Virus record (IMG/VR): IMGVR_UViG_3300008120_000321 | Coordinates: 1 to 35,707 of that record | Source of the DNA: a virus | Strand: one strand, 5' to 3' | Length of the DNA: 35,707 bases | In this document: positions 3,353 through 30,446 of the stretch, in pieces | Position numbering within the stretch: position 1 is the first letter of the stretch | Layout: each line of letters opens with the position of its first letter | Made by a program: the position numbers and the translations under genes | The notes under the pieces: model-generated | Told to the model about the DNA's origin: nothing | Database searches by the model: none | Seen by the model: only the letters and a program-made list of their open reading frames with translations

Positions 3353-3373
3353 TAGTGTAATGACATTACACTA
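3353..3373 (-). terminator. Perfect hairpin starting at the stop codon of the giant gene
   Basis: TAGTGTAAT (3353-3361) and ATTACACTA (3365-3373) are perfect 9-bp arms around a 3-nt loop. On the minus strand the hairpin begins with the TAG stop of the giant polyvalent protein gene. The following bases (TTCATTTG) are only moderately U-rich, so it may be a weak terminator or an mRNA 3' end stabiliser. Confidence 0.5.
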
Positions 3374-6300
3374 CATAGGAGGAGGCGGCGGGCCTTCCTT
3401 GACCTCTTCTTCCACGTTGAATAAATCGTATATTTTCTTGCCAAATTTACTTTTGCCGTCAATCATCTCTTCTATTATCTTGTAGTATTTGAGCGTAGTA
3501 CCCGCCGGAATGCCGGACAAGTCGGTAATATTTGCCGCGATTTTTATCATAGCCGACTGCCTTTTAGAATCTGATTTGGCACGGTTATAATCTTGAAGTG
3601 ACTTCACGATGTCTTTGGCCGCCATCAGGAATGGAGTATTCCTCATGTCAGATGCCCATGGCTTACCGGTGTACCAGTCCTTAAACGACTCTATGACATC
3701 GCCAATAAGTATCAATGCGGTAATATTGCCTAAAATGCCGGTTAGTATCATGTCTTTCTCGTCATCATCATCCCATTTATTGAGAATACCGGGCATGCCA
3801 AGCAAGAACACATAGTTATAGAATAGCGGCATCACAAAGTGAAAAGCTATAAACGATCTCAAATTTTTTGCAAACTCATCTGACTTAACTCCTTTTGGCC
3901 CTGTGCTTAAGAGTATTCTATACATATTCCTAATGGACATGATTTCTATACGAAGATATTGCAACGGCTGAGATGCAAACAGCGTAAATGACTTTAATAT
4001 AGAGTCTCCAATCCCGCCACTTGCCGTTTGAGTCAGCCCTTTGTTCTGAGGGTTGTTGCTCTGAGCGACATTTGAAGTTATAGTCATAAACTTCTCGGCA
4101 GCTAATTTCTTTGCAGACTCCTCATTCACGCCTTGCTTTAAGTACTTGTCCTTGTAGTATGCATATAACGGGAGGCCAGTCAAGATACCATACTTGTCAC
4201 CCAGTCTAGCCAAAATCATCATGTGCTGAACCCACTTTTGAGGGATCCAGAAATTGTCATCAGTTTTGCCCAATGCCCCTAACAGGACGTTGAGATCAAT
4301 ACCATCAAGCCTTGACTTTAGGGTGGCATTATACTCCTTCATTTCATCGACCATGCTCTTTATCTTGAATGGATCGCCGAGAATCTTTCCTGCATATACG
4401 CCAAATTTTACAGCCCCTATATCAGCGACATACCCCATTCCAGTAGTCATCTGAGACAGGAACACCCTAAAGTTCCCCGCCAACTTGGCTATTGCAAATT
4501 GTTTAGTACCTGTGATAATGAAAGACGCAGGATCTTCCACATACCCCGTTCCTTGTATTCGTTCTATCATCGTAACAAGGCTGTTGTAAACTTTTTTGCC
4601 AGAAGTGGCTTCTATGGCTTTCTTGACAAGCTGATTGTTAAATATGCCTGCAACATCACGGATAGCCTCTTCAAAGGACGCAAAGAAATTCATCTCTCTG
4701 GTGTATTTCTTTAGTATGCTATCCCCATCCATGAACTTAATGGAAGACTTTGATTTAACCCTAGACTTTGTAGACGCCCCCGCTACAGTTGGGCTTATCA
4801 ATCTAAACTCACTAAAGAGAGTTGAAATTTCAGGAGTTGACGACACCCCTTCTCTTACTAACATTCCTGCATAATGCCTCTCCCATGGGAGTGGACTGCC
4901 AAACACACGCTCATACACAGGGCTATACAGTTCGTATACAGCAGGGAAGTACTCATCAACCTGCCAGTCAGCCCACTCAATAACATCAGGGTGGTTTCTC
5001 GCAAGGAAGTCTAACATATATTCAAAAAACTCCAACTCCGACATCCCATATTTAGAGGCAGCATCTTTGAATGAACTTAATACGGACTCTTGATTTGCCG
5101 GATTTTTATACTGATTGTATATGTAGTACAGTTGATTGACGCTAAATTTTTGGTCAAACCCAGGGAAGGAAATGTTTTGTTTAGCGTTGTTGGCAAGCAC
5201 CCTTTCCCACTTAGGACCAAATATCCTCTTGGCTGCATCTTGAAGCATATCCTGTGTGAGTATATTAAGTCTATCGTATTCCTTTTGAGCATCGGATATC
5301 CTCCTTACAGTCATATCGTATGCGAGACCTTCAAATAACGATACTGCCGAAATAGACACCTTGTTTATGATGCCGGTGAAGTCTTCCGTCGTCCCAGACA
5401 AGAAGCCAACTATCGTATCTATAAACCTTTGGACGAATCTCTGTTCTCTTTTCGCAGTTCTATCGGAAAGTCTTTGCTTTAATTTATCAAGCTCTTCCTT
5501 GTCGTCAATTAATGCCATCAGCTCACCTGCATCAACTTGCAGGATGTCTGATGCCATAATTGCAGCTAACTCATTTCTACGCTTAGCCTTTGAAATCTTA
5601 TCCTCTAAGAACTTTGCTCTCTCTCCTCGGAGTATTCTTTTCAACTCGTCGTCAACTTCTTTTAGCACGTCCGTCTTGCCATCATTGCTGTCATCCATAA
5701 GCAAGGATGCATTGTATTTAACCGCTATCGTAAGAGCCTCTATGTTCCTTTGTATCTCTTCTTGGACTTCATACGGCTGAGCACTAATCTCATTAAGTAG
5801 AGTGTCGAGGGCAACAGACTGCTCTGCTATTTTGGCCTCAATGTTTGCCGCCGGGCTATCTTCACTCATGAGCATACCCCCATTTAGGGCGTTCAGCAAA
5901 ACTTGAGCATCGACAGTCGTCCTGCCTAAGATTACGCCCTTTTTCTTACTCGTTATCTTTGTTTCCAGCATTTTGGATATGCTAGACTTAAGATCTCTGT
6001 TCTTTATGGTCGCAATTGTATCCCGCACCTCGTCTATAATCTGCGCCATATTTGTGGTTGTAGCCTTTTTGACTTTTTCAAGCAAAGACTTAACCTCTTT
6101 AGTGGTGTACTTTGATTTGGGCAGACTAGCAATAATGTAAGACACCAATTGAGCCTTAGCAGTGTTCGCTATCTTCCCGCCCCGGACTATGCTCTTAGCT
6201 TCTATTGCCAACCTGCGCAGAGACGCCCTCATATTCCGGCTCATTCTGATGTCGCTCGAGTTAAGCAACCCTACCATCATCTGTTTCTTGACGTCAATCG

Positions 6301-9300
6301 TTGCATTTATGTATGCGGGCTCCGCCTTAAGCGCCTCCATCATAGCATCTACAATAGTATCCCCAAGTCCCTTTTGCCCCTTTATGGCCTTGCGCTTCTT
6401 CCTGTTTCTGTACAAGTCTATACCTACCGTTCTCACTCTATTCCACACCGCCAGCCCTTCGTGGTATCCTCCTGGTACATTGGCAAACGCAGGAGGAAAT
6501 GGCATTAGTTCAGGGGATTTTATGTTGGTAATAACATTCCCGAGGCCACTCATAAACAGGTTTATGTCGTCCTGTTCATACTTATTGATTTGCAGATACC
6601 TTTTAATCGCGTCATCTGTATACCCTCTATCTCTAGCGTCCCTCACGATGTCTATGATATCCCTGTCCTCTCTAAACTGAGGATTAGGGATGAGAGTAGC
6701 CTCAAACGCTTCTGATGACTGTGGTATTGGCTTGCCACTCAACAGGTCGCTAAGAGCCGTGTTGATGAAGTCATCGAGCGTCATGGTTTCAATAGGGCCC
6801 AGATACTTAGTGATATACCTCCACAAAGACTTAAGCCAGTTTTTCATCTTCGGGTTTACGACATCCGCACCACGGTTTCCGATGATGATGGCGAGTGCTT
6901 CATCCGCTGCCTGACCAGGTGACTTGCCCTTAGCTAATTCTGCCTTGTACTCTTTGGTTGACTTGACCAGCTCTATACCACGCGCATAGAGTTCGCTGTT
7001 GTGGACCTTAATGTAGTTCAGCCATATGTGCCCAAACTCATGGATTAAGGTATTAAACAGCTCTGACTCCGAGTTGTGAACATCTGGGTTGATATAAATC
7101 TTCCCATCTTTTGTCATGCCATACACTTCGCCAACCATATCGAGTTCTCCGTTCTCACGCATCCTATTGAACTCATCAGCACTCATAAACACCTCCACTC
7201 CCGGGAAGGCATGATTGAGAAACTTAGCGAGCTCCACTACATTGCTCGGCGCACTATTAACAGCCCACTCCACGTTGCTAGATGAGGGCCGTTGGTCCTG
7301 AACCACATCTCTTAATACCTTGGTCTTGAATACTTCAGGTATTGGAATTGAACGCTCATAATCATCACCTATTTTAATAAGACTATACTCTCCAAATAGT
7401 CTTATTGCATACAAATTGTAGATATTCAGCCTATTGTTCACATTTCTGCCCTGAGAATCTTGTTTTATTTTTTGATTAACGCCATCATTGTTTATGGGCG
7501 TGAAATTTATATAGTCATACTCAACGTCAGCGAACATCTCTATGATCTTCTTGACGACAAGCGGCATTACGGTCGTCCCTGCTTTATTGTCTGTATACCC
7601 GCTATAAGTCGGCCCATTGTTAGTAAAGCTAACCCCTATTGATTTGCTGTATTCGTTATAAGTTCCACTAACCTCTATGCCCTCCATCCTATTCGTTTCT
7701 TTATGGAAATATTCGAATGTACCACTCCTGCTATTTGAAGACTGATTTGCCGCACTTGCATCGTATACCTCCTTTTCTCTAGACATAAGAGCCATTCTTA
7801 CAGCCTCTATGACTGAGTCATCAGATGGGAGAACTTTCTCCGCATCACCGGCAATCAAATTAACAGCCACATAGTCAGCAGAAAATCCATAAATATTATC
7901 TAATATTAAATCATCAAACTCTTCCGACATCGATACACGACGTGGATCCCGGTATATCGCATCTGACAGATTGAAATCGCCGCTTAAGTTCGTGGCCACA
8001 TAATAGGTGGTGCCAATAGGATTCATGGGGTCGACAGATCCAACCCTAATATGAGTTTCTTGAGCATAACGAGTCATGGAAATGCCCCTTATAGCAGTTA
8101 AAGCTGCAAATCCTTCAGCTATATAATTCACTAAATCCTGATTAGCCGAATCTTCGTCAGTAAACTCGGTAATTCCATTAAGTTCAATGCTACTGATTAT
8201 ATCAGCAAAAACATCTTCGGCCCTAGATGGCATTAAAAATGTGCGTACTTCTTTGTCTTGGGTAGAAACAACATCATCGAAATTCGTTCCAGATATAAGA
8301 CTCCGTAAATTCATTACCCCTAATTTATCAAGCGTATATTTAACACCTGAATTGCGGATTTTTTTTAACAAATTTCCATGATGAATTAAAAGTAAATCAC
8401 CCAGAAAAGACGTGGCATCTGAATACCCATAACTATGAACGCTTAGCCGATTTAGCTCACTCAAAGCTCTTGATAATTCTCCGTCATTGAGAGGATCTGT
8501 ATTTTGATTGTTATTATCAGCAAGTATTTGGCGGACATTACTAAGCACATCAATAAGAAGATCCCTATCGGATTTATTTTTAAGAGATTCTACAAGTTTA
8601 TTATTCTTTTCCCTAAATCTCTTGTTTACTACATGATTCTTAAATCTATTTAAACTCTTGATGCTAAATATAAACTTAGAGTCTTTATTATAAGAATCCG
8701 GTGAAACAACAGTTGTTTCAAACCTATTTGAAATATATTGTAGCATATCGTTTGCCTCGGAAGAAAGCTGAAACGGTGCCTTAGCCATACTAACCCCCCC
8801 ACCGGTAATATTAAAATCAGGGTCAGTCAACAACAACGAAAGCATTTGCAATGTACTAGCAGCGTTGATACTTGCAGGTACTTGAGCCACATTTAACTTG
8901 TAGTTGATGCCCGATGCTTTCAAGAAATCATTTATAACCTGCTTTACAGCAATCCATATTTTTTCTGCCAGTCTATACTCACCTGTCTTCGGGTCTAGTT
9001 GTTCAGCGCCATATTTACCGAGCAGAGATGCTGCGGCTTCCATGAAAGCCCCCGATTCATCTAACTCAGGATATTCTCGCTTTACTCTTTCAAGCTCTTG
9101 CTTGCCATCACCATATTTCAGCTCTTTTAATATCTGAGACCATGCATTCTTATTCCCATTCTTAATCATATGAATGAAAACGTGTCCATATTCGTGAATA
9201 GGGGTGTCAAACCCCACTTTCTGTGCCATGTTGACGTACACCGTTGGGTTGCCCATGGAGTCCCAGCTAGTCCACCCAAGCCTGCTGTCTGATGGCTCGT

Positions 9301-12190
9301 TTACTATCTGATACGGCACATTGAACTTATCCATCATCGTCGACAGCACTTTCTCAACATACTCCTGAGATGCCCCTTCCATTTCAGATGTCTTTTGAAA
9401 TTGAGTGCGATCATCTATGGTAATGGCATTTTCGTCAAACACAACATAGTTGAAGCCTCTAGCGGTATCGCTTGTTACGCCTCGTGCTATACTCTCTGCG
9501 GGGTATTTTACGCCGTCAATTCCAGCGCGAAGTAAAAATAAAGAGGCTTCTTTTTGTGGATTTTTTATACCACTTTCATAAAAGTATTTCGTTAAATCAT
9601 TATAGAAATCTTTTCCACTGCCTGATATTGGTCGTGGCCTATATATTTTATAGTCTGTCTTTTTGCCCAAAAGACGCATAGTTTCATTTGCACCCGAATC
9701 ACTTACTTCTTTAGGTAAATTTTCTTTTTCAAATTGCGAGTTAATTTTATTTCTATTTAAATCGCTAATCGGCTTATCCCACTCCAGCCAATCGTATTGG
9801 TCAGGGGTCTTCCCCTTGTGGAGTGTTACCTTGTAGAGCATCTTGTTCTTTTCTAACTTAATTTCCTTGCTAGATATTATGTTCTCAAGTTCTTTAATAA
9901 TACCCTTTAGTTTTTTTATTTCATTAGGCATCTCACTTCTCTGTTTTTCAGAGCGAGACGTTTTGGCAATTTCCTTTAAGTCAGGTATGTATTCTTTTTT
10001 TATCTTGTTTATTGCTACTTTAGCAATATCCCTTATCGTGTTTTCGTTAAAATTATCTCCATAACTGTCATCCGCAAGAAATAAGTAACTGTAGGCATCT
10101 TTGCTTATTAATTTTCCATCATAAGAATACTCGTCCCCCGATAGCTTTTTTGCATACATCTCCGCAATACTCTTCAAGTCCGTAAAGTACAGCCCCCAGC
10201 CAAATGCCTGCGCTCCTTCTCCCGTGCCTATCTTTTCAGTTGTAAACTTATCAAATTCGTAAGGAGACCCGTGCCACCCCTCTACTTGGTACATTTCCCT
10301 TCCGTCGCGCATGCCTATCTCTTCGCTTGTAGGCTGAGTCAAATAAGCAGAAACATCTACAGATTGCCTTGGCTTGGATGTAGGGATTCTGACATGAGCC
10401 TCATCGCCAAAAGTATCGTCAAGTTGTAGCTTCTCAATAGGAATCCTTAATTGTATCACAGCATCTCCATAGCCTTCCGCCTGTCCACTTTCTTTCGTAG
10501 AAAAGAAAAGGCCATCCTCTAATCCAAGCATTATGCCGGATTGTTCTATTTGCGCTTTTTTATCATCTGTCGTTCTATGATAAACCGTCACTAAGCCATC
10601 CGCGTCTATTTTGGCACCATTATCAAGCAGCTCATTAGATAAATCCTGGGCATTTAAGAGCGCATCCCCACTAAGCCTTTTGGATAGTCCTTCGCTTGGC
10701 AGTACTATTTTCGACTCCGACGCGCCTATTATAGTAGCAATATCTTTAATGGTGGCGTTTGACGGAATGTCGCTCAAAAGTATAAAGTCATTTTTTACCA
10801 GAGACTGAACAAAACTTGCCATTTTTTTCAGCATCTCCTTAAGCATTCCCAATAACTTAGTGTTTTGCTTTTCCTTAAACACCTTGTCAGTCATTATGCC
10901 AAGCAATGTGACTATCGCCTCGTCAATGTAATCATCCGGATCTTCAAACTTATACTTATTTTTTACATTGCTCAATACCTCTTGCCCCAATTCAGTCGTC
11001 TCTATTTCATTCTTCAAATTTTCATACAACTCGCTATACTCAGGGTCATTGCGCATAGCTTCAATGATCGGGTGCCCGAGTATCTCATGAAAAACGGTCT
11101 CAGCATTGGCGTAGGCCAAGTTAATGACAGCCCTTTTTTTAGAGGGTATGTACTTTCCTTTGAATAAAGCCCTTTCATCGTTTATAAACTCAACGCTAAT
11201 GCCAATCCTAGAGGCCACTGACGCAGCAAACTTCTTGAACTCATCAACCCCCTCTGGGCTTAACACCTCTTGTCCGCCAACTATTAGCATGAACTTCTCG
11301 TCACCTCGTTCTGCTGCTTTTTGTCCATATGCTATTTGGGTTGTAAATTCTCCTGAAACTTTCCGCACTGGCTTTTCTGCGGTTATCCTTGCCCCTGAGT
11401 TATACGCTAAGTCTAATGCGTTTTTCGTTTTGACCTCATAAACCCTGCCAGTGATTTTATTTTTAGCATACACCACTCCACCCATCTGCACCTTCCTAAG
11501 AGCGCCAAAGTAATTTGAAGACGGGTCAACAACAGTATACTCAGCGCCAACTTTAGCATTAACCGCATCTTTATTGGCATTGTATATCTCAAGTTGTCGA
11601 GCAGTGGGGCGTCTTCCCTCGCTAATATCATCAGCAATAGATGCCAAGACATCATCGTTAACTTGACCCTGCTTAAACGCTTCGTAGTCAGCATCCGACA
11701 CATCCTTGCTTGGCTTAGCCAATTCCGACTTGTCGACCTCAACCTCGTACTTACGCGTTGAATTATTGTAATTAGCCTTATCTCTAAACCTTGGAGGCAG
11801 TCCATCGAGGTCGTTAGCCACGAACGTAATCTTGTCATCGCCATAGTCTGCCGCATTAAACGACACATCATCTTCAATCTTCTCCGCCACTGCCCTGCTC
11901 ATAGCGTCGTCATTCTCAATCTCAATATTCATGCGAGACAAAACCGATGGCGGCATACGTTTCACTATCATATCAAGATACCTCTTGCCTACATACTCGC
12001 CATCAACCCTGTATACCGGTCCAGTACCAATAATTGGCGATAGATTTAGGACCTCTTTAGGCACCTTCTTGTTCAGCACAATACTGTCTATTTCATTCTG
12101 TATCGACTGCTGCAATGGCTTGTTGAGCGCTGGCGTCCTTGGTATTCGTGCCCTTCTCGATGGTCTTAGTCCGCTGCGCATCAGTGTCAT
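3371..12190 (-). CDS. Giant polyvalent protein: three metallopeptidase motifs, two ADP-ribosyltransferase-like domains, C-terminal membrane region
   Basis: About 2,939 residues (numbered here from an in-frame TTG at 12193; ATG at 12190 is the preferred start, ATG 12181 possible). In order: HEILGH at 369-374, a metallopeptidase-type HExxGH motif; an ART-like domain at about 530-610 (YHRTT at 538, GLFFST at 561, GDEAHVRI at 596); an ART-PolyVal-like domain at about 638-928 (HGSPYEF at 641, GWGLYF at 665, NYVVFDENA near 915); canonical HEYGH at 1000-1004 with E1052 as candidate third ligand; an unrecognised region 1160-1640; HEFGH at 1718-1722 with E1765; long helical/coiled region 1930-2300; PLPWERHYAGM near 2435; and hydrophobic segments near 2785-2835 resembling the C-terminal domain of large polyvalent proteins. 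It ends in PPPPPM. Such proteins are thought to be ejected with the DNA and to disarm host factors. It is the last gene of the virion operon and overlaps the upstream gene by 98 nt. Confidence 0.88.
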   Translation of the reverse strand: MTLMRSGLRPSRRARIPRTPALNKPLQQSIQNEIDSIVLNKKVPKEVLNLSPIIGTGPVYRVDGEYVGKRYLDMIVKRMPPSVLSRMNIEIENDDAMSRAVAEKIEDDVSFNAADYGDDKITFVANDLDGLPPRFRDKANYNNSTRKYEVEVDKSELAKPSKDVSDADYEAFKQGQVNDDVLASIADDISEGRRPTARQLEIYNANKDAVNAKVGAEYTVVDPSSNYFGALRKVQMGGVVYAKNKITGRVYEVKTKNALDLAYNSGARITAEKPVRKVSGEFTTQIAYGQKAAERGDEKFMLIVGGQEVLSPEGVDEFKKFAASVASRIGISVEFINDERALFKGKYIPSKKRAVINLAYANAETVFHEILGHPIIEAMRNDPEYSELYENLKNEIETTELGQEVLSNVKNKYKFEDPDDYIDEAIVTLLGIMTDKVFKEKQNTKLLGMLKEMLKKMASFVQSLVKNDFILLSDIPSNATIKDIATIIGASESKIVLPSEGLSKRLSGDALLNAQDLSNELLDNGAKIDADGLVTVYHRTTDDKKAQIEQSGIMLGLEDGLFFSTKESGQAEGYGDAVIQLRIPIEKLQLDDTFGDEAHVRIPTSKPRQSVDVSAYLTQPTSEEIGMRDGREMYQVEGWHGSPYEFDKFTTEKIGTGEGAQAFGWGLYFTDLKSIAEMYAKKLSGDEYSYDGKLISKDAYSYLFLADDSYGDNFNENTIRDIAKVAINKIKKEYIPDLKEIAKTSRSEKQRSEMPNEIKKLKGIIKELENIISSKEIKLEKNKMLYKVTLHKGKTPDQYDWLEWDKPISDLNRNKINSQFEKENLPKEVSDSGANETMRLLGKKTDYKIYRPRPISGSGKDFYNDLTKYFYESGIKNPQKEASLFLLRAGIDGVKYPAESIARGVTSDTARGFNYVVFDENAITIDDRTQFQKTSEMEGASQEYVEKVLSTMMDKFNVPYQIVNEPSDSRLGWTSWDSMGNPTVYVNMAQKVGFDTPIHEYGHVFIHMIKNGNKNAWSQILKELKYGDGKQELERVKREYPELDESGAFMEAAASLLGKYGAEQLDPKTGEYRLAEKIWIAVKQVINDFLKASGINYKLNVAQVPASINAASTLQMLSLLLTDPDFNITGGGVSMAKAPFQLSSEANDMLQYISNRFETTVVSPDSYNKDSKFIFSIKSLNRFKNHVVNKRFREKNNKLVESLKNKSDRDLLIDVLSNVRQILADNNNQNTDPLNDGELSRALSELNRLSVHSYGYSDATSFLGDLLLIHHGNLLKKIRNSGVKYTLDKLGVMNLRSLISGTNFDDVVSTQDKEVRTFLMPSRAEDVFADIISSIELNGITEFTDEDSANQDLVNYIAEGFAALTAIRGISMTRYAQETHIRVGSVDPMNPIGTTYYVATNLSGDFNLSDAIYRDPRRVSMSEEFDDLILDNIYGFSADYVAVNLIAGDAEKVLPSDDSVIEAVRMALMSREKEVYDASAANQSSNSRSGTFEYFHKETNRMEGIEVSGTYNEYSKSIGVSFTNNGPTYSGYTDNKAGTTVMPLVVKKIIEMFADVEYDYINFTPINNDGVNQKIKQDSQGRNVNNRLNIYNLYAIRLFGEYSLIKIGDDYERSIPIPEVFKTKVLRDVVQDQRPSSSNVEWAVNSAPSNVVELAKFLNHAFPGVEVFMSADEFNRMRENGELDMVGEVYGMTKDGKIYINPDVHNSESELFNTLIHEFGHIWLNYIKVHNSELYARGIELVKSTKEYKAELAKGKSPGQAADEALAIIIGNRGADVVNPKMKNWLKSLWRYITKYLGPIETMTLDDFINTALSDLLSGKPIPQSSEAFEATLIPNPQFREDRDIIDIVRDARDRGYTDDAIKRYLQINKYEQDDINLFMSGLGNVITNIKSPELMPFPPAFANVPGGYHEGLAVWNRVRTVGIDLYRNRKKRKAIKGQKGLGDTIVDAMMEALKAEPAYINATIDVKKQMMVGLLNSSDIRMSRNMRASLRRLAIEAKSIVRGGKIANTAKAQLVSYIIASLPKSKYTTKEVKSLLEKVKKATTTNMAQIIDEVRDTIATIKNRDLKSSISKMLETKITSKKKGVILGRTTVDAQVLLNALNGGMLMSEDSPAANIEAKIAEQSVALDTLLNEISAQPYEVQEEIQRNIEALTIAVKYNASLLMDDSNDGKTDVLKEVDDELKRILRGERAKFLEDKISKAKRRNELAAIMASDILQVDAGELMALIDDKEELDKLKQRLSDRTAKREQRFVQRFIDTIVGFLSGTTEDFTGIINKVSISAVSLFEGLAYDMTVRRISDAQKEYDRLNILTQDMLQDAAKRIFGPKWERVLANNAKQNISFPGFDQKFSVNQLYYIYNQYKNPANQESVLSSFKDAASKYGMSELEFFEYMLDFLARNHPDVIEWADWQVDEYFPAVYELYSPVYERVFGSPLPWERHYAGMLVREGVSSTPEISTLFSEFRLISPTVAGASTKSRVKSKSSIKFMDGDSILKKYTREMNFFASFEEAIRDVAGIFNNQLVKKAIEATSGKKVYNSLVTMIERIQGTGYVEDPASFIITGTKQFAIAKLAGNFRVFLSQMTTGMGYVADIGAVKFGVYAGKILGDPFKIKSMVDEMKEYNATLKSRLDGIDLNVLLGALGKTDDNFWIPQKWVQHMMILARLGDKYGILTGLPLYAYYKDKYLKQGVNEESAKKLAAEKFMTITSNVAQSNNPQNKGLTQTASGGIGDSILKSFTLFASQPLQYLRIEIMSIRNMYRILLSTGPKGVKSDEFAKNLRSFIAFHFVMPLFYNYVFLLGMPGILNKWDDDDEKDMILTGILGNITALILIGDVIESFKDWYTGKPWASDMRNTPFLMAAKDIVKSLQDYNRAKSDSKRQSAMIKIAANITDLSGIPAGTTLKYYKIIEEMIDGKSKFGKKIYDLFNVEEEVKEGPPPPPM

Positions 12191-14456
12191 CAAGGCTGCT
12201 TAGCGCAATGCGAGCCTGACGGATGTCAGCAATGTTCTCGACAATCTTGCGCTCCGTTTCCTCGGTAATCTTGCCCAGCTTCCTCATGTTTCCGGTCCAC
12301 TCTTGAACCTTATTGATATCATCTCCAGTGTTGTTGATGAATGCCCTACTTTTAGACATATTATCAGCAAGGTCCTCGTAGTAATTGTTGCGAAGCTGCA
12401 TGTATACCTCTCTATAAAACCCAAATGGGTTTGATGCCACCATCCCCCCGGCACCAAGCATCTCGGCCACTACTTCATTTCCATTCAATTCACCATATGC
12501 AGCAAGCTGCCCTATGGCCTCTCCACCCCCCTCCTGTATAGTTTCAAACGCTGCGTTCTTGACCACTGTTCTAGACACCCTGTTGGCGGCAGATGCAATG
12601 GATGATATCCTGAATTTATCAAGCATAGCCAGTAGTATAATCTCAGTGCCGGCTATAGCACCGCCCTTAATCAACCCCTTCATTGCCTTTTCTTCAATTT
12701 CGGGATCGTTGACCCACTCGCCTCTGCGTATTTGTTCTGGGGTGTATTTCTCTTTCATTGCCTGAAAGACATTCAAGCCAACCTCTAATGCCACATTAGA
12801 AACGACATTGCCAACATATGCGTTGAATGTACCCGCAGCAGACATCCCCGTTCTAAAGCCAGCAGCCGCACCAGCGGGAGTCTTGGTGACGAGAAGCCCT
12901 ACGCCAGCACCAATGACACCACCCGCAGCCTGAATACTCAACATCTCCCCTCCCGTCATCGTTATCATCTGAGTGAGAGCATCGGCAGCTAAGGTGGTAG
13001 CAGCAGGCAACAATACCGTAGGATCTGAAAGGTATCCGAGAAAATCAAACGTGCCCTCTTCTTCCATTCTCTGCATCAACATCAACTGAGTCTTGCTCAA
13101 CGGCAACTGCGGCTTTGAGCTATAGTACGCCATCCTTTTATTGGCTTCCTCTTGGGTTATCAGTCCTGATGCATACTTGACATACTCCTTAGCACCTTTA
13201 GTACTATAATAGGCATTCTTAATGCTATTAGAAACCCCCTCTATAAACCCAACGGTTTCCTCTTGGATTTGCTTGTTCGTCTTTTGATTAAAGTACATTT
13301 TGGCATCCTCATATTTATTAAATGCCTGCTTCTGAACGTCGATGCCTTTAGCGTAATCATTCAATATCTCTGCCACCGAATCGTACTGATCTTTGTTAGC
13401 AAACTTTAAGTTCTTAACATTATCTGGTGTTAGGTCAACTCCAGTTACTGCCTTAAACCTGTCTGCACTACTCTTTGTCAATGACTCCCCGATATTTCTC
13501 AGCTTAATCGCCTGGGCTGTGGACTCCTTGACCTGAGCTTCAAGTCTTTTATCCACTTCTAAAATATAATCTCTTTCGTATGCATCAGCAGTTGGCGATA
13601 TATCCTCTGCCTCTTTTTTCAAATCCTGCAAAAGTTCAAACCTGCCCTTTTTGTATTTCTTCTCGAGAGAAGCCATTGCGCTTTCATTCTGCTCATTCTC
13701 CTCGATATATTTAATCAAGTTTCTGACTGACTTGCGCCTATTGTAAACATCATAGGCTTCCCGCTGATTGACACCCAGCTCTTGTGCGAGCTCATTCTTT
13801 ATCCGGTTTTCGTTACTGATTGATACCCCAACTTCAGGGGTAACAGCCTCCTTGACAACGAAATCTTTGAGTCTCTTTATTTCCGACCTCTGTCCTTCCG
13901 AAGACTTTAAGAACCCGCTACTCAAATCAACTTTTATGCTTTTGTCGCCAGCCCTAGCCTCTATATTATTCAACTCATCTACATCGAAGACAATGCCATA
14001 CTTCCCTAAGTTTAGGTTTAAGTATCGGGTGATGTCTTTTGCCGATGGCTTTTTTTTCACAGGAGAGCTGACCCCCATCGCTAAGTCTTCAACAAATGGC
14101 TCAGGAGCCGTCATCTTCAAAAAAGCATCATCCAACACCTCATCTAAAAGCCCTTCCTCTTCAACATCCATTTGATAAGCGCGATCTATAGGCTCTGCGG
14201 AGTAGTCTATTTCCGCTATTTCTTTGTCGGCCTCTTCGGATAACCTCTCCTCAATACGCTGCTGAACGTCTGGGGCGAATGGCTTAACTATAGGTCTGCC
14301 AAGAGGCGTTGTTACCGGCTCCTTTTTAGGTTGCAATCTTTCTTTAGACAGCTCGTCAATAGGGACACTGACAACAGGCGGTGACAATGCCCTTCCGGCC
14401 TCGGATAGCTGACTGAGATTAGGAATAGATGGTAGTTTAGTGGGCTGCTTTGCCAT
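12093..14456 (-). CDS. Large internal virion / ejection protein with hydrophobic segments
   Basis: The 787-residue protein has a charged N-terminal half with long predicted helices, then an Ala/Gly-rich hydrophobic region (about 480-560, including AAGGVIGAGVGLLV) and a second one (about 610-640, GGAIAGTEIILLAML). A segment ETIQEGGGEAIGQLAAYGEL follows, a pattern seen in the membrane part of large phage ejection or polyvalent proteins. It probably leaves the capsid with the genome and helps form the channel across the host envelope; this is inferred from composition and position. The start codon overlaps the upstream stop by 1 nt. Its 3' end overlaps the giant gene in another frame, which raises the possibility that the two form one functional unit. 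Confidence 0.75.
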   Translation of the reverse strand: MAKQPTKLPSIPNLSQLSEAGRALSPPVVSVPIDELSKERLQPKKEPVTTPLGRPIVKPFAPDVQQRIEERLSEEADKEIAEIDYSAEPIDRAYQMDVEEEGLLDEVLDDAFLKMTAPEPFVEDLAMGVSSPVKKKPSAKDITRYLNLNLGKYGIVFDVDELNNIEARAGDKSIKVDLSSGFLKSSEGQRSEIKRLKDFVVKEAVTPEVGVSISNENRIKNELAQELGVNQREAYDVYNRRKSVRNLIKYIEENEQNESAMASLEKKYKKGRFELLQDLKKEAEDISPTADAYERDYILEVDKRLEAQVKESTAQAIKLRNIGESLTKSSADRFKAVTGVDLTPDNVKNLKFANKDQYDSVAEILNDYAKGIDVQKQAFNKYEDAKMYFNQKTNKQIQEETVGFIEGVSNSIKNAYYSTKGAKEYVKYASGLITQEEANKRMAYYSSKPQLPLSKTQLMLMQRMEEEGTFDFLGYLSDPTVLLPAATTLAADALTQMITMTGGEMLSIQAAGGVIGAGVGLLVTKTPAGAAAGFRTGMSAAGTFNAYVGNVVSNVALEVGLNVFQAMKEKYTPEQIRRGEWVNDPEIEEKAMKGLIKGGAIAGTEIILLAMLDKFRISSIASAANRVSRTVVKNAAFETIQEGGGEAIGQLAAYGELNGNEVVAEMLGAGGMVASNPFGFYREVYMQLRNNYYEDLADNMSKSRAFINNTGDDINKVQEWTGNMRKLGKITEETERKIVENIADIRQARIALSSLDDTDAQRTKTIEKGTNTKDASAQQAIAAVDTE

Positions 14457-24550: not shown

Positions 24551-25260
24551 TGCGGTTGAACTCCTTTCTGTTCTAGTTTAGCACCAAATGCATATACGTT
24601 CTCCTCGCGGATAGATACGCCAGCGTATTGTAATATCTTGCTCACTAAGTTCGGCATATCAGAATCGGGCAACTCAAAGTCCTGATAATCGTTAGCCGCT
24701 GCATTGAATATAGGAGCAGTTCCTACCAAGGTATAAGTCCATTGAGGCGTTTTTGGGTATCTCACATAACTAATAGTCACGCCAGAAGCTATAGTCGCTG
24801 GATAGACCTTGATTTTAGAGTCTAGGGTATCACTGGCTGTAATCACATTCCCTGTCATCGTATATGCCGGAAACGTAACGGATGGCGCAGTAATGTTAGA
24901 TGTATTGAGCATATTCAACTTTGATTGAGATACACGCTCTACATCTCTACTCCCGTAGTACACATTGGTCAGGTAGTAGCAGTTGGCAGGAATCAAGAAG
25001 AACCCACCACTAAACGTAGGAGTAGACTCAACCCTAAAGCTATCAATAACTTCTTCTGCAATCTGCTTAAGCCCTGCGTATTCAGTGCCAACTCTACGGA
25101 TATTCTCAGCAGCCACAAGCGTATTGTAGTTATCGAAATACTCAGTGAATAAATCCATCTGCGCCTGGTAAGCGTACAGATTAAAATCCCCCGGAGTTAT
25201 ATACCCGTAGTTGTTCTTGTTAACAACAGCCAAAACAGATGTATATACGTCTTGTATCAT
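24547..25260 (-). CDS. Head-tail connector / ring-like structural protein
   Basis: The 237-residue protein begins VYTSVLAVVNKNNYGYITPGDFNLYAYQAQMDLFTEYFD, the helical start seen in conserved crAss-like structural proteins next to the preceding ring protein. It then has a beta-rich centre and ends in a helix that includes NLVSKILQYAGVSIRE (about 206-221). Its role is probably to extend the portal into the tail tube. Start and stop overlap neighbours by 4 nt. The assignment rests on order and the N-terminal motif. Confidence 0.68.
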   Translation of the reverse strand: MIQDVYTSVLAVVNKNNYGYITPGDFNLYAYQAQMDLFTEYFDNYNTLVAAENIRRVGTEYAGLKQIAEEVIDSFRVESTPTFSGGFFLIPANCYYLTNVYYGSRDVERVSQSKLNMLNTSNITAPSVTFPAYTMTGNVITASDTLDSKIKVYPATIASGVTISYVRYPKTPQWTYTLVGTAPIFNAAANDYQDFELPDSDMPNLVSKILQYAGVSIREENVYAFGAKLEQKGVQPQ

Positions 25261-25565
25261 ACCAATGTTATATTAGAAAAAAACACCTGAGTTGAAGATA
25301 CATCAGGAGGAGATGGGACTACATATATTTCAGACAAAGAGTAGTCAATAGCATAAGAAATCTGACCAATAAACCAAGCATGTAGAGAATATGTAGTATC
25401 AGCCTGGCTAAATGTAATCCTTAAATTTTGATTTGTCGGAGATCCGTAGAAAATATTTACTTCAGAAGTACTATTTCTATATAAAAGCCTTATGTCCGCT
25501 ACCGATATTAATACAGATGTATTATTTAATCCGGTTACATTAGTGAGTTGAATGTAGTTTGCCAC
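25257..25565 (-). CDS. Small head-associated paralog (sixth in tandem array)
   Basis: The 103-residue protein, started at GTG 25565 (read as MANYIQLTNVTG), matches the N-terminal strand of its upstream paralogs (MAKFLRILP). The centre has LRITFSQADTTYSLHAWFIGQ, aligned with the ITFS.SDS...HR.FI.A pattern of the others. It is the most divergent member. The GTG is supported by a promoter-like TATTTTTG (25577-25570) exactly 4 nt upstream. The earlier in-frame TTG at 25583 would lie in the terminator U-tract. It overlaps the ring-protein gene by 4 nt and is probably the first gene of the tail operon. Confidence 0.65.
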   Translation of the reverse strand: MANYIQLTNVTGLNNTSVLISVADIRLLYRNSTSEVNIFYGSPTNQNLRITFSQADTTYSLHAWFIGQISYAIDYSLSEIYVVPSPPDVSSTQVFFSNITLV

Positions 25566-25569
25566 GACA

Positions 25570-25599
25570 CAAAAATAAAACAAAAAGCCACCCCCCGAA
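25570..25599 (-). promoter_or_regulatory. Putative leaderless promoter of the tail operon
   Basis: TTCG (25599-25596), an 18-nt spacer, TATTTTTG (25577-25570, matching TAnnTTTG), then 4 nt and the GTG start codon at 25565. Transcription is expected to begin at or within a few bases of the start codon. The upstream box lies in the loop of the preceding terminator hairpin. Confidence 0.55.
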
Positions 25600-25614
25600 A
25601 AATCAGAGGGTGGC
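25582..25614 (-). terminator. Intrinsic terminator inside the paralog array
   Basis: On the minus strand GCCACCC (25614-25608) pairs with GGGTGGC (25593-25587), followed by TTTTTG from 25586. Seven GC-rich pairs plus a U-tract are typical of a factor-independent terminator. It separates the head-gene transcripts from the tail operon. Confidence 0.88.
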
Positions 25615-25634
25615 CATATAGAGCTTTATCAAAA

Positions 25635-25943
25635 TTAAGCTATAGCAAAAGAAATCGTATAGGTAGTGGCCCCAATAGTCACCGATGATGGAATGGCTAG
25701 CAAACTAGAAGCGCCAGCCGATGGCTTGACGCTAGACTGAGCAGCACCAATCAAAATGTCGGCTATATAATTGTGTATGATATAGTTTGCGTCAGATGTC
25801 ACCGTTATTGTCACAACTCTCGATGGGGCATAAGTTACAGTTACAGCAGTTGCACTTGTAAAAGCAATGGATATAATTGCATTAGCATCAATATATCCAT
25901 GACCTGCGGCGTTCAATGCGCCAAATCTAACTAGTGGTTTCAT
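25635..25943 (-). CDS. Small head-associated paralog (fifth in tandem array)
   Basis: A 102-residue beta-rich protein that starts MKPLVRFGALNAAGHGYIDANAIISIAF and has VVTITVTSDANYIIHNYIADILIGAA in the middle, lining up with the MAKFLRI...INPD..L and ITFS.SDS...H..FI.AI..A pattern of its neighbours. It is the last gene before the intrinsic terminator. No catalytic residues are present. Copy number in the virion and location are unknown; a role in head decoration or at the head vertices is likely by position after the capsid gene. Confidence 0.7.
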   Translation of the reverse strand: MKPLVRFGALNAAGHGYIDANAIISIAFTSATAVTVTYAPSRVVTITVTSDANYIIHNYIADILIGAAQSSVKPSAGASSLLAIPSSVTIGATTYTISFAIA

Positions 25944-26271: not shown

Positions 26272-26598
26272 TTACGAGTATGTTATTGAGTTTACGGTTA
26301 AAGCAGCGCCAGTGGCGCCACTAATGAGGGCGGGTAAATCATAATATGTTCCACTATTTTGATTTGAAGAAGCCGCGCACAATGCATTTAGAAAAATCCT
26401 GTGAGCATTTCTAGTCGAGTCACTTCCAGAAAATGTAATTGACAATAAATCAGAACCAGCGTCCATGTTGTTAATTTGAATATGTATTATACCGTTTGAC
26501 ACTGCGCTCGCATATAAAACAATATCAGGATTTATTAACGCAGAGCCATTCGAAGGAGTCAATAGGGATTCTGGCAATATTCTTAAAAACTTAGCCAT
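26272..26598 (-). CDS. Small head-associated paralog (third in tandem array)
   Basis: The 108-residue protein (MAKFLRILPESLLTPSNGSALINPDIVLYA...) is the closest relative of the downstream 107-residue product, with the same ITFSGSDSTR.AHRIFLNALCAA and GTYYDLPALISGA motifs. It is separated from both neighbours by 2 nt, so translation is likely coupled. It probably has the same fold and location as the other array members. Small sequence differences may give hetero-oligomers or alternate decoration. Confidence 0.78.
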   Translation of the reverse strand: MAKFLRILPESLLTPSNGSALINPDIVLYASAVSNGIIHIQINNMDAGSDLLSITFSGSDSTRNAHRIFLNALCAASSNQNSGTYYDLPALISGATGAALTVNSITYS

Positions 26599-26600
26599 AT

Positions 26601-27839
26601 TTAAGATATGATCGTTGCGTTAAAATCAATAAATCTGCCATCAGGAAGAGCCGGAACGTCAATATACCCCATTGGAGATGTAGGAGATCCAGACGCCTTA
26701 ACAATAGCATCCATAATGATCTCGTGAGTCATACCATATGCATCAGCACCAAAAGTCAAAGTCGCAGTGTCAACCCCTGCGTTAGATGAGTTCATCTGAA
26801 TCTGAATAGTATCCTGTGCAGTAGGACGCATAGTGATGAAATTTTCAATATTCAATAAAATAGGAGCATTTGTTTCCGTTGTAAACGAATAAGACATATT
26901 TCTTGATGTCCAAGCGGTGAGCGAAGTAGATGTCAACGCCCTATTATTAGGCCCAGATCGAGATACGATAACAAAATTGTTTGTTGCCACAGAAGCCCCA
27001 CCAATCCATAAATTACCCCCATCATCAGGGGTAGTTCGATTAGTGAAGGTACTGCCGTCTGCCGTAGTGATAATTCTAGAAGAAGGAACTGCATACTGAT
27101 TAAATACTACAGCAGTGGTTCCATCAGAACAGGCTGCTTGATACAGCCCCGCCGTTAGGTTGCTATTAGTAGTATATGTAACTCCATTTTGACTTATGAC
27201 TACAGCCCCATTAGTGCCGCCACTAGAAGTTATACCCAACATAGATGATCCAATCCTAACAACTTCTATCCATGCTCCCGCAGGACTGCTTGCGGCATTT
27301 GTCCATGTAGTCACATCCCCTGCATTACCAGTAATGAAACTCGTTCCAGCGGCTCCTCCATCAGTACACGCAACCCATGTAGTGCCGCTCCAAACAATAC
27401 TCCGATATGTTAATCCGCCAGCAGGATACGCTACAGAAGTCCAGGTAATCCCGTCGGTACTCTTATAGGAATTAGTTCCACTGCCAACTGCAACGAATCT
27501 AGTGCCATCAGAAGCAACGCAAAAAAGCGCGTCGGTTATAACTGTCGTAGCAAGAGTCCACGACGCCCCGCTATTGGCGCTATACATAATATGGTTCGTT
27601 CCGCCAGAACTCGCTACGGCCACATAGGTACTTCCCTGTACCGCAACATGGCTCCAAGCCTTATTGTCCATACCAGCCCCAGGGGCGATAAATGTCCATG
27701 TCGCACCAGAATCCGTGCTTCTAGCAACTCTAAACTGACCACTGCTCGCAACAGCAACAACATTACTTCCATTAGCAGCCACACTGCTCCAAGTGCTATT
27801 AGTAGATGGTCCTACAGGTATTTTTAAGAATCTAGCCAT
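26601..27839 (-). CDS. Array paralog with an inserted seven-bladed beta-propeller
   Basis: The 412-residue protein begins MARFLKIPVG, as its small neighbours do, and ends (about 326-412) with a segment matching the rest of the small domain: ILLNIENFITMRP, IQIQMNSSNAGVD, TLTFGADAYGMTHEIIMDAI and GYIDVPALPDG. Between them, residues 16-315 form seven repeats of about 42 residues, each ending in an Asp-box-like motif (STDSGATWT, SANSGASWT, STDGITWT, NAGDVTTWT, SQNGVTYT, TADGSTFT, STSLTAWT). This is a BNR/sialidase-type propeller placed inside a head-paralog domain. It probably projects from the virion and binds glycans or host surface material. Sialidase catalytic residues were not identified, so enzymatic activity is not claimed. 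Confidence 0.85.
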   Translation of the reverse strand: MARFLKIPVGPSTNSTWSSVAANGSNVVAVASSGQFRVARSTDSGATWTFIAPGAGMDNKAWSHVAVQGSTYVAVASSGGTNHIMYSANSGASWTLATTVITDALFCVASDGTRFVAVGSGTNSYKSTDGITWTSVAYPAGGLTYRSIVWSGTTWVACTDGGAAGTSFITGNAGDVTTWTNAASSPAGAWIEVVRIGSSMLGITSSGGTNGAVVISQNGVTYTTNSNLTAGLYQAACSDGTTAVVFNQYAVPSSRIITTADGSTFTNRTTPDDGGNLWIGGASVATNNFVIVSRSGPNNRALTSTSLTAWTSRNMSYSFTTETNAPILLNIENFITMRPTAQDTIQIQMNSSNAGVDTATLTFGADAYGMTHEIIMDAIVKASGSPTSPMGYIDVPALPDGRFIDFNATIIS

Positions 27840-28192: not shown

Positions 28193-28222
28193 CAAATATA
28201 ATATGATTTAGACCGAGACGAA
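28193..28222 (-). promoter_or_regulatory. Putative leaderless promoter of the paralog array
   Basis: TTCG (28222-28219), an 18-nt spacer, TATATTTG (28200-28193), then 4 nt and the ATG at 28188. The spacing is identical to that before the sixth paralog at 25565. It overlaps the 3' end of the upstream head gene. Confidence 0.55.
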
Positions 28223-28927
28223 TTTTTCCAGCACCTTCATAGCATCAGCACCCTCTTCAGTCAAAAAGAACGAACTGACAGCACTATGATGCGTCTGGTC
28301 CAATGGAACAGTCAACATCTTGGACTTATTGGTTGGGAGGTTGTAATGCACAGCATTCTTACGAGCAGACAACACCCCCTCATCAAACAACTTAGCAACA
28401 AAGCCCTCGTGAGCAATGTGCGGGTCGTTAGCCATAGACAAGAGGTCTTGAGGATTGTTTCTGGCAAATCGGTACATATCACGCTTCAGTTCTGATGTAG
28501 TCATCTTCGACGGATCAATCTCCAATGCCACACGCGCAATACTCTCCAATGTAGAGATGTCCATACTGCGTACACGGGCGGTAGCCTCATGCTCAAGCTC
28601 GTAGTAGTCAATCTCTTCCTGTGCGTCTTTCTGATTATTCACCTCCTCAAACAACTTACCATTGTCAGGATGTACACTGAGGAAGTGCCGCAACACCGGG
28701 TTGTCCTCATAAACAGTTAAAAACCCGTTCTCAAAGACAATGGGCTCTAAGATAAAATTTCCGTCTTGCTCATCCTCGAAGGGGCTCTTTTGGTTCCTCG
28801 CATATCGGAGCGCCCTGTTTGTTTTGCCATCGAAATGATATAGCCTTCTAGCCGTTGTGTTTCTGCTTGCGAGGTAGAAACTGTCTGGGGCGGCTCCCCC
28901 AATGAGTTTGTATACTGTGGTTTTCAT
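28208..28927 (-). CDS. Conserved head-associated protein of unknown function
   Basis: The 239-residue protein has an N-terminal beta-rich part with LRYARNQKSPFEDEQDGN and ILEPIVFENGFLTVYEDNPVLRHFLSVHPDNGKLFEE (about 40-92, read in pieces), a conserved combination found in proteins of several marine and gut phage groups near the capsid gene. The second half is helical and charged. A DNA- or capsid-binding role is possible but unproven. It follows the capsid terminator and has no visible promoter, so it may depend on readthrough. Confidence 0.65.
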   Translation of the reverse strand: MKTTVYKLIGGAAPDSFYLASRNTTARRLYHFDGKTNRALRYARNQKSPFEDEQDGNFILEPIVFENGFLTVYEDNPVLRHFLSVHPDNGKLFEEVNNQKDAQEEIDYYELEHEATARVRSMDISTLESIARVALEIDPSKMTTSELKRDMYRFARNNPQDLLSMANDPHIAHEGFVAKLFDEGVLSARKNAVHYNLPTNKSKMLTVPLDQTHHSAVSSFFLTEEGADAMKVLEKFVSV

Positions 28928-28988: not shown

Positions 28989-30446
28989 CTAAGATTGAAA
29001 GATGAAGAAGTTGTTTGCGCCAAGGGTACACACACAACGCTCAGACAAGTAGTGAACAGACATTGTGTCGGAGTCACTATTTGAAGCACCCCCAGCAGAG
29101 CCAACTACCCAAGTCTTGAACTTACGGTCTTCGGACTCTGTCTGGCGATAGCGAACGTGCAAGAATGGACGCTTAGCATTCTGCCCCATAACCTCGTCAT
29201 AGACGCTAGTTGTTCCGGCAGGTACAAGCATACCATTGATTGCACCACCTACAGTTCCTGATGCAGTGCCCTGACCACGCATAGTGGGGTCATTCAGGTA
29301 CTTCCAGTCAGTTTTGTAGAAGTCATAACCACGACGGAATCCACGGAATCCGAGGTTCAGTGCCATCTGCTCGTTATTGTCAAACAGACCGTAAGATGTT
29401 CCACCGGTACCGTAAGAGTTCTGAGCGGCCAAGAAGTCATCCATAGCAAAAGAGGCAGCGCGGTTCACGAACAACGCGTTCTCCTCAATAGCACCCTGCT
29501 TGTCAAGACGCTGCACGATGGCATCGAAATCAACAAGGCTAGTTGGGAATCCACCACTGAAAATGTTACCACGATTTTGAACAGCAAAGAACACACCTTC
29601 AGTTCCTTTGTAGTTACTCACGGCAGCTCCATTTGCCAACGATCCCGCAGCAGGTATCGCCTCAAGCATAGAAGCCTCCAAGTAGTCCTCAAAACGAAGT
29701 CGAGAATCGTGCTCAGCCTTCATGTACCAAAGGTATCCTGATACGCCATTCTCACCAGTAACTTCAACCCAGCCAACCTGAGTCATATCAGAACCAGTTA
29801 CAGTGTAACGGTCTTTTAGGATGATAGGATTATTAGTGAAAAATTGGTCGAATGGCTGCAAAGATTCTGGCATTCCACTCGTTCCTTTTTTAAACTCAGA
29901 TCCATACACCCACACAGTGTAATTTCCGTTAGTAAGCCCACTAGACTCATAAGCAGCCGCAGTAAAAGTGGTTGTGGCATTTGCAGCGGCATATGTCATT
30001 GTACTATTAATAACAGCATGGAAAACAGCAGCGCCATTTTCTTGCTGACACATAATTGTCTGACCTTCTCTAAGACCAATGTTCACCGCAGCAGCAAGCG
30101 GTTGAGCATTAGTAGCGGTAGGATATCCAGTTATTGTATTTTGGGCAGGCACTATCAATGATGCCTGACCACCGGTAAATGTAACGGCTACATTCGTGTA
30201 TTTAACATGCAATCTACCTTGCTCTGCCCAACGGATAAGGTCAGAAGCGCAGGGCATTTCTGCACCGACCATACGCATGAAGCCAGAGATACTACGATTA
30301 CCGTAGCGTTCAAACTCTTTCTCATAAATGTCTGGCAGATATTGGTTAGTCCAATCGAAAGCAGCACTTCCGATATAATTTGTTTGAGCAATCTGACGAT
30401 TCGCAGATGGCTGGAGTTGAAATGAAGGGGATGCGTTAACTGGCAT
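28989..30446 (-). CDS. Major capsid protein
   Basis: A 485-residue protein placed between a scaffold-like gene and a strong terminator, the normal position for a highly expressed capsid gene. It has an N-terminal helix region (YLPDIYEKEFERYGNRSISGFMRMVGAEMPCASDLIRWAEQGRL), a beta-rich middle, and C-terminal blocks FLHVRYRQTESEDRKFKTWVVGSAGGA and SVHYLSERCVCTLGANNFF that fit the pattern of crAss-like capsid proteins with the HK97 fold. There is no obvious cleavage site or separate head protease in the window. The leader is A-rich (AAAAAAAACTAAACT) without a Shine-Dalgarno site. Confidence 0.82.
   Translation of the reverse strand: MPVNASPSFQLQPSANRQIAQTNYIGSAAFDWTNQYLPDIYEKEFERYGNRSISGFMRMVGAEMPCASDLIRWAEQGRLHVKYTNVAVTFTGGQASLIVPAQNTITGYPTATNAQPLAAAVNIGLREGQTIMCQQENGAAVFHAVINSTMTYAAANATTTFTAAAYESSGLTNGNYTVWVYGSEFKKGTSGMPESLQPFDQFFTNNPIILKDRYTVTGSDMTQVGWVEVTGENGVSGYLWYMKAEHDSRLRFEDYLEASMLEAIPAAGSLANGAAVSNYKGTEGVFFAVQNRGNIFSGGFPTSLVDFDAIVQRLDKQGAIEENALFVNRAASFAMDDFLAAQNSYGTGGTSYGLFDNNEQMALNLGFRGFRRGYDFYKTDWKYLNDPTMRGQGTASGTVGGAINGMLVPAGTTSVYDEVMGQNAKRPFLHVRYRQTESEDRKFKTWVVGSAGGASNSDSDTMSVHYLSERCVCTLGANNFFIFQS

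Follow-up and report, generated by a model that had tools for sequence, protein, structure and literature searches.

Gene order and the carrier family

The late genes of the window analysed here, the whole 35.7-kb stretch of a virus record, lie on the minus strand. They comprise, in this order, terminase, portal, a probable scaffold, the major capsid protein (MCP, phrog_13704), a gene for a 239-aa protein, the array of small genes and the tail genes. The small genes are tandem paralogs, hereafter called carriers and numbered by slot from the capsid side, and the slot 2 protein contains a large insert (Table 1). For slot 5, the open reading frame called by the program (25257-25583) begins with a TTG that is probably not the true start; we favour the GTG at 25565, since the resulting MANYIQL... 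fits the M-x-x-[FY] pattern with which the other paralogs begin. The host of this short-tailed, cassette-bearing phage is probably a member of the Bacteroidota. The annotated relatives with named hosts, namely the Flavobacterium elemo phages, Cellulophaga phi38:1 (Pervagoviridae) and Maribacter phage Panino, all infect Bacteroidota. Elsewhere in the window, near the end of the late genes, positions 3371-12193 encode a polyvalent-type protein of 2940 aa, whose single chain contains HEILGH, HEYGH and HEFGH, all three of them HExxH-like motifs, and the protein of a short open reading frame at 2578-2829 holds a perfect tandem repeat, two copies of AITEAVVAQLRTR.

Table 1. Coordinates, within the window, of the genes and signals in and around the carrier array
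Feature	Position	Strand	Remark
Major capsid / virion structural protein (MCP, phrog_13704)	28989..30446	-	
239-aa conserved gene (phrog_34748, no assigned function) between MCP and array	28208..28927	-	
TATATTTG, Bacteroidota-type -7 box immediately 5' of slot 1; left boundary of the cassette	28193..28200	-	consensus in PMC7366714
Slot 1: small carrier paralog, 114 aa	27844..28188	-	
Slot 2: 412-aa carrier protein with inserted seven-bladed propeller	26601..27839	-	ATG start
Slot 2, N-terminal carrier strand MARFLKIP, residues 1-8	27816..27839	-	start motif as in small members
Slot 2, inserted seven-bladed Asp-box-type propeller, residues 12-316	26892..27806	-	
Slot 2, C-terminal carrier domain, residues 319-412, homologous to small neighbours	26604..26885	-	
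Slot 3a: small carrier paralog, 108 aa, closest to slot 3b	26272..26598	-	
Slot 3b: small carrier paralog, 107 aa	25946..26269	-	structure predicted
Slot 4: small carrier paralog, 102 aa; final gene of the cassette	25635..25943	-	
Predicted intrinsic terminator (hairpin and T run) 3' of slot 4; right boundary of the cassette	25582..25615	-	conserved in relatives
TATTTTTG, -7 box between terminator and slot 5	25570..25577	-	
Slot 5: carrier paralog beyond the cassette, at the head of the tail unit	25257..25565	-	MANYIQL...; GTG start at 25565 probable

Carriers are widespread, a single scan with the single-copy type having confirmed 354 stretches that encode relatives, and neither Pfam nor PHROGs assigns them a named function. 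When 54 small members were compared with both databases, only scattered weak matches appeared, with no named family for any carrier scanned, and a tblastn search of small members against cultured phages gave no match. Among the best 80 of the 354 stretches, the MCP is visible in 70 loci, and in about 68 of these it is followed by the ~250-aa gene, a carrier and a tail gene, a count that includes near-duplicates. This fixed synteny of MCP, ~250-aa gene, carrier(s) and tail genes suggests that the small paralogs may be associated with the phage head. The carrier fold found no convincing solved counterpart in the PDB: the model of the 107-aa paralog had no Foldseek match at E values up to 0.001, and its best PDB matches, of FERM F3/PH-like type, were weak (Z at most 5.2 over 72 residues).

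The propeller-bearing carrier and its relatives

Several comparisons relate the 412-aa protein to its small tandem neighbours. In a search restricted to one genome, its C-terminal ~85 residues were 32-33% identical to the neighbours of 107 aa (E 5e-8) and 108 aa (E 8e-8). A profile HMM built exclusively from family members shorter than 135 aa matched residues 319-401 at E 3.7e-19, and profile-profile comparison (hhalign) of the C-terminal domain with the small members gave a probability of 97.8% (E 7.7e-13). The likeness of this C-terminal part to the neighbours, which the initial annotation had proposed, is thereby borne out. The sharing of the N-terminal strand, also proposed there, holds at the level of the start motif, M[AS][KR]F[LI]xxP being present in all aligned propeller members as in the small ones, but MARFLKIP alone is too short to reach significance (independent E 1.4). 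Structure prediction for the 107-aa paralog (pLDDT 86.6) yielded the order E, E, E, E, E, H, E, E, and the model of the 412-aa protein has the same order, with the propeller between strands 1 and 2 and the final strands shorter or weaker; the pLDDT of its C-terminal domain is only about 50-72, lowest at the last residues. The equal order of secondary-structure elements in both models agrees with the proposal that the propeller sits in the first loop of a small paralog whose remaining part is intact.

The insert itself is predicted with much higher confidence. AlphaFold2 builds residues 16-313 as 28 strands forming seven four-strand blades, with pLDDT mostly above 90, and the closest solved folds are seven-bladed, among them virginiamycin B lyase (Z 28.5 over 270 residues, 2.6 A). 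The repeats, with a periodicity of about 45 residues (BLOSUM autocorrelation at lags 45 and 88 above the maximum of 300 shuffles), are thus predicted to close into a complete propeller, as expected from the initial reading of the sequence. That reading had also counted seven Asp-box repeats; the number of blades stands, but only about three boxes are canonical, as the motif is near-canonical in three blades (residues 41, 87 and 127), relaxed in two (216 and 259) and degenerate in the other two. In the Asp-box / BNR propeller superfamily, the motif has the form S-x-D-x-G-x-x-W and is placed between the third and fourth strands of a blade. Because the propeller starts at blade 1 and finishes at blade 7, its two ends should lie close together, as insertion into a loop requires.

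Profile searches with the propeller found weak matches to sialidases and Ycf48 (E 0.001-0.03) and, below the Pfam cut-offs, to BNR (10.9 bits, cut-off 27) and Sortilin-Vps10 (18, cut-off 33); no family match named a ligand. A sialidase of the GH33 type, with six blades, an Arg triad, a Tyr/Glu pair and an Asp acid/base, is unlikely because the domain has seven blades and there are only one to three glutamates per propeller, none of them in invariant columns across nine relatives. Other enzymatic readings were rejected on the same two grounds of blade count and missing conserved Glu. Binding therefore appears, from the sequence and the predicted fold, the likeliest function. The G+C content is 47.6% in the propeller, 38-40% in the carriers and 46.7% in the MCP gene; base composition may thus weakly indicate a foreign origin of the propeller.

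Relatives of the phage show that the array member acts as a carrier in more than one genome. A search with the MCP retrieved 38 contigs, ten of which encode a member of 416-442 aa in the same slot. After the set was widened by three subgroup scans, a propeller was found in this slot in at least 13 related contigs, and 13 distinct propeller proteins entered the tree. Their carrier parts form one clade (support 98/94), which makes a single insertion of the propeller probable. On the MCP tree, its presence requires at least three changes, so that loss or transfer must have occurred. Other relatives have different domains in the first loop. These are one or two beta modules of ~60-75 aa each in L207 (173 aa) and in L208, L211, L213 and L221 (257-260 aa), and a single ~75-aa module in L009 (199 aa) and L021 (208 aa). 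The ~75-aa module occurs again near the last strand, in the last loop, of a 226-aa carrier of L021, and the copies in the two loops share 35-38% identity (E 1e-10 to 1e-14). Within L021, the copies of the last-loop carrier (L021:10306-10986) and the first-loop carrier (L021:11283-11909) are 35.5% identical, as if the module had moved between the paralogs. The insert of the 208-aa protein of L021 also gave a weak match, under the cut-off, to an endosialidase beta-barrel (E 0.008). With the propeller in the same slot of 13 diverged contigs and other inserts in the same loop of relatives, we consider the insertion and the carrier role of the paralog, likewise suggested in the initial annotation, to be firm.

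Phage propellers of the Asp-box / DUF6242 type (e.g. BFVD A0A6J7WX40 and A0A6J5SXG5) share the fold with the domain described here, at 23-30% sequence identity, and the same motif family occurs in many IMG/VR phages. However, those propellers are parts of long tail proteins or standalone proteins, whereas this one is nested within a capsid-adjacent carrier; our literature search found no paper on a propeller borne by a phage capsid.

Exchange and loss of the array

The box 5' of slot 1 fits the Bacteroidota -7 consensus TAnnTTTG (PMC7366714) and precedes slot 1 in nearly all relatives with several members. On the other side of the array, a strong terminator hairpin comes after the end of slot 4, and then a second TAnnTTTG box ahead of slot 5; each of the 21 genomes inspected has a similar hairpin at the corresponding position. 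This succession of a terminator and a -7 box before the tail unit suggests that the array and the tail genes are separate transcription units.

The same two signals delimit what is exchanged between closely related genomes. Contigs L015 and L016 are 86-99% identical in nucleotide sequence up to the first box, 30-55% between the signals and 90-99% from the terminator on, with breakpoints at the conserved -7 box and the conserved terminator. Accordingly, their flanking proteins are nearly the same (scaffold 100% identical, MCP 96%, 239-aa gene 99%, tail A 97%, tail B 100%), in contrast to those of the array (slot 1 32%, propeller 36%, slot 3 41%). The pairs L058/L049 and L008/L006 display the same pattern, and L015/L058 the reverse one, with an array shared at 82-92% on backbones at 59-73%. 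The array is therefore inherited and exchanged as one unit; the joint exchange of slots 1-4 suggests a matched set, for instance one that occupies different sites or forms a mixed oligomer.

Contig L018 represents a natural empty site. It lacks ~2.3 kb (at L018:3000-3200), its sequence passing from a truncated -7 box directly into the terminator, and its flanks are 94-95% identical to L015 at the nucleotide level. Unless this contig contains an assembly error, the array is dispensable in at least one relative. Dispensability, a characteristic of decoration proteins, is thus seen in L018, with this reservation about its assembly, and agrees with the cultured elemo and phi38:1 genomes, which have no carrier at the corresponding position. 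Since the row is swapped or lost as a whole, we suggest that it represents a plug-in set of binding proteins on the virion surface. Phage tail-fibre and receptor-binding exchange cassettes likewise involve the swapping of a surface-recognition region between near-identical genomes; here, unlike in those cassettes, the exchanged genes are flanked by those for the capsid and the tail adaptor, with a promoter-like box and a terminator as their limits.

Proposed function and comparison with known systems

Our leading interpretation of the function is display on the head surface, to which we give an even chance. The locus as a whole would be an exchangeable cassette for virion-surface display, whose carriers attach to the head and expose a propeller for binding, a proposal that we judge to be evenly balanced between right and wrong. 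It entails that the carriers are present in the virion and located on the head, that their loop faces outward, that the propeller binds a ligand and that the -7 box is an active promoter, all of which we infer. Four to five paralogous carriers of ~100 aa would be made late in infection from their own putative promoter beside the capsid gene, and each would dock on the particle through the shared fold, most likely on the head shell or a vertex. The loop between beta1 and beta2 would face outward and be able to take whole domains; since it is found with a 300-residue propeller, with one or two beta modules or without any insert, this first loop probably points away from the particle on which the carriers dock. 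In the present phage, one carrier would bear a non-enzymatic propeller whose ligand, perhaps a glycan, would most likely belong to the host surface or the environment, and its binding would make adsorption more probable. The initial annotation had likewise proposed presentation from the capsid or its vertices and binding of glycan or mucus, both of which we regard as putative. Carriers encoded in the same cassette would be adapted to each other and, for this reason, swapped or lost as one piece.

As the paralog in slot 5 is part of the tail transcription unit, a few carriers may be located on the tail or neck. All carriers could even build an assembly of the neck, the collar or the tail side, attached close to the portal or the tail adaptor, with the propeller as a whisker- or fibre-like receptor-binding part. 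Such an assembly would be in keeping with an array that directly precedes the tail genes, with a fifth paralog heading the tail transcription unit and with the related Asp-box propellers known in phage tail and fibre proteins. We nevertheless find it rather unlikely, because the conserved terminator separates slots 1-4 from the tail unit, these slots adjoin the capsid gene in all relatives seen, and fibre-type trimerisation regions were not seen.

A position next to the MCP and a small size would also suit cement proteins, and many phages have the array without large inserts. The array might then mainly reinforce the capsid, and the propeller would bind no ligand but be a stabiliser or simply bulk that the particle tolerates. 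However, an essential set would not be expected to be missing from the near-identical L018, nor would exchange down to ~35% identity be expected while the MCP stays at 96%, which makes capsid reinforcement as the main role quite improbable. The unit-wise swapping and loss, together with a putative promoter of its own, are typical of accessory cassettes as well, and the late region could in principle encode intracellular proteins (e.g. for anti-defence or superinfection exclusion) that never enter the virion. To this we assign a very low probability, as the paralogs are fixed between capsid and tail genes across a wide range of phages, the carriers are beta-rich and have adhesin-like inserts, and no match to defence or counter-defence proteins appeared in PHROG or Pfam.

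Capsid-surface adhesins are known singly (Hoc, pb10, gp36 and head fibres), and a modular, traded locus, whose small carrier repeatedly acquires different binding domains, would explain how environmental phages diversify their head surface independently of the tail. More tentatively, and with a likelihood that we place somewhat short of even, the locus described here might represent a general plug-in display locus of Bacteroidota phages, defined by paralogous carriers, domains in outward loops and promoter-to-terminator exchange; it would then be a head-borne counterpart of tail-fibre swapping, by which phages change what their capsids stick to. The contigs L015, L016 and L018, which combine the same backbone with two different cassettes and with none, constitute a natural experiment.

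Attachment by way of decoration proteins is well established, with Hoc, pb10, gp12 and gp8.5 as members of this class (PMC7602432). The locus described here shares with T4 Hoc, T5 pb10, N4 gp17 and phi29 gp8.5 the idea of dispensable capsid-surface proteins that display binding domains. However, those proteins have Ig-like or fibre domains rather than a loop insert in a small carrier and form no paralog array, and they are not known to undergo promoter-to-terminator exchange (PMC7602432).

The best working analogue is the auxiliary capsid protein gp36 of crAss001 (PDB 7QOI/8CKB), which lies on the capsid surface and has a PH-like beta/alpha domain that a large insert divides into residues 1-74 and 238-333 (PMC10172136). 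As here, its gene is located between the MCP and tail genes of a Bacteroidota phage, its domain is interrupted by an insert, and the weak PDB matches of the carrier are also PH-like (Z up to 5.2). By contrast, gp36 is a single gene and its insert, the flagellin-like FD domain, comes later in the fold, instead of an array and a propeller. Homology of the carrier to gp36 was not supported in comparisons with one sequence, with a profile of 10 members and with a profile of the PH part only, the order of motifs being suggestive but not significant: hhalign gave a probability below 1% with gp36 alone or together with 10 gp36 homologues, and 6 of 300 column shuffles scored equally high in the control. 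The gp36 PDB entries were absent among the carrier fold matches listed. As the PH-like matches are weak and the sequence homology is not significant, we do not claim membership of the gp36 family. The gp36 family appears to gain inserts too, as its homologue in the crAss-like phage cr128_1 (L146:589-1860) has 423 aa compared with 333, with an extra stretch of ~70 aa.
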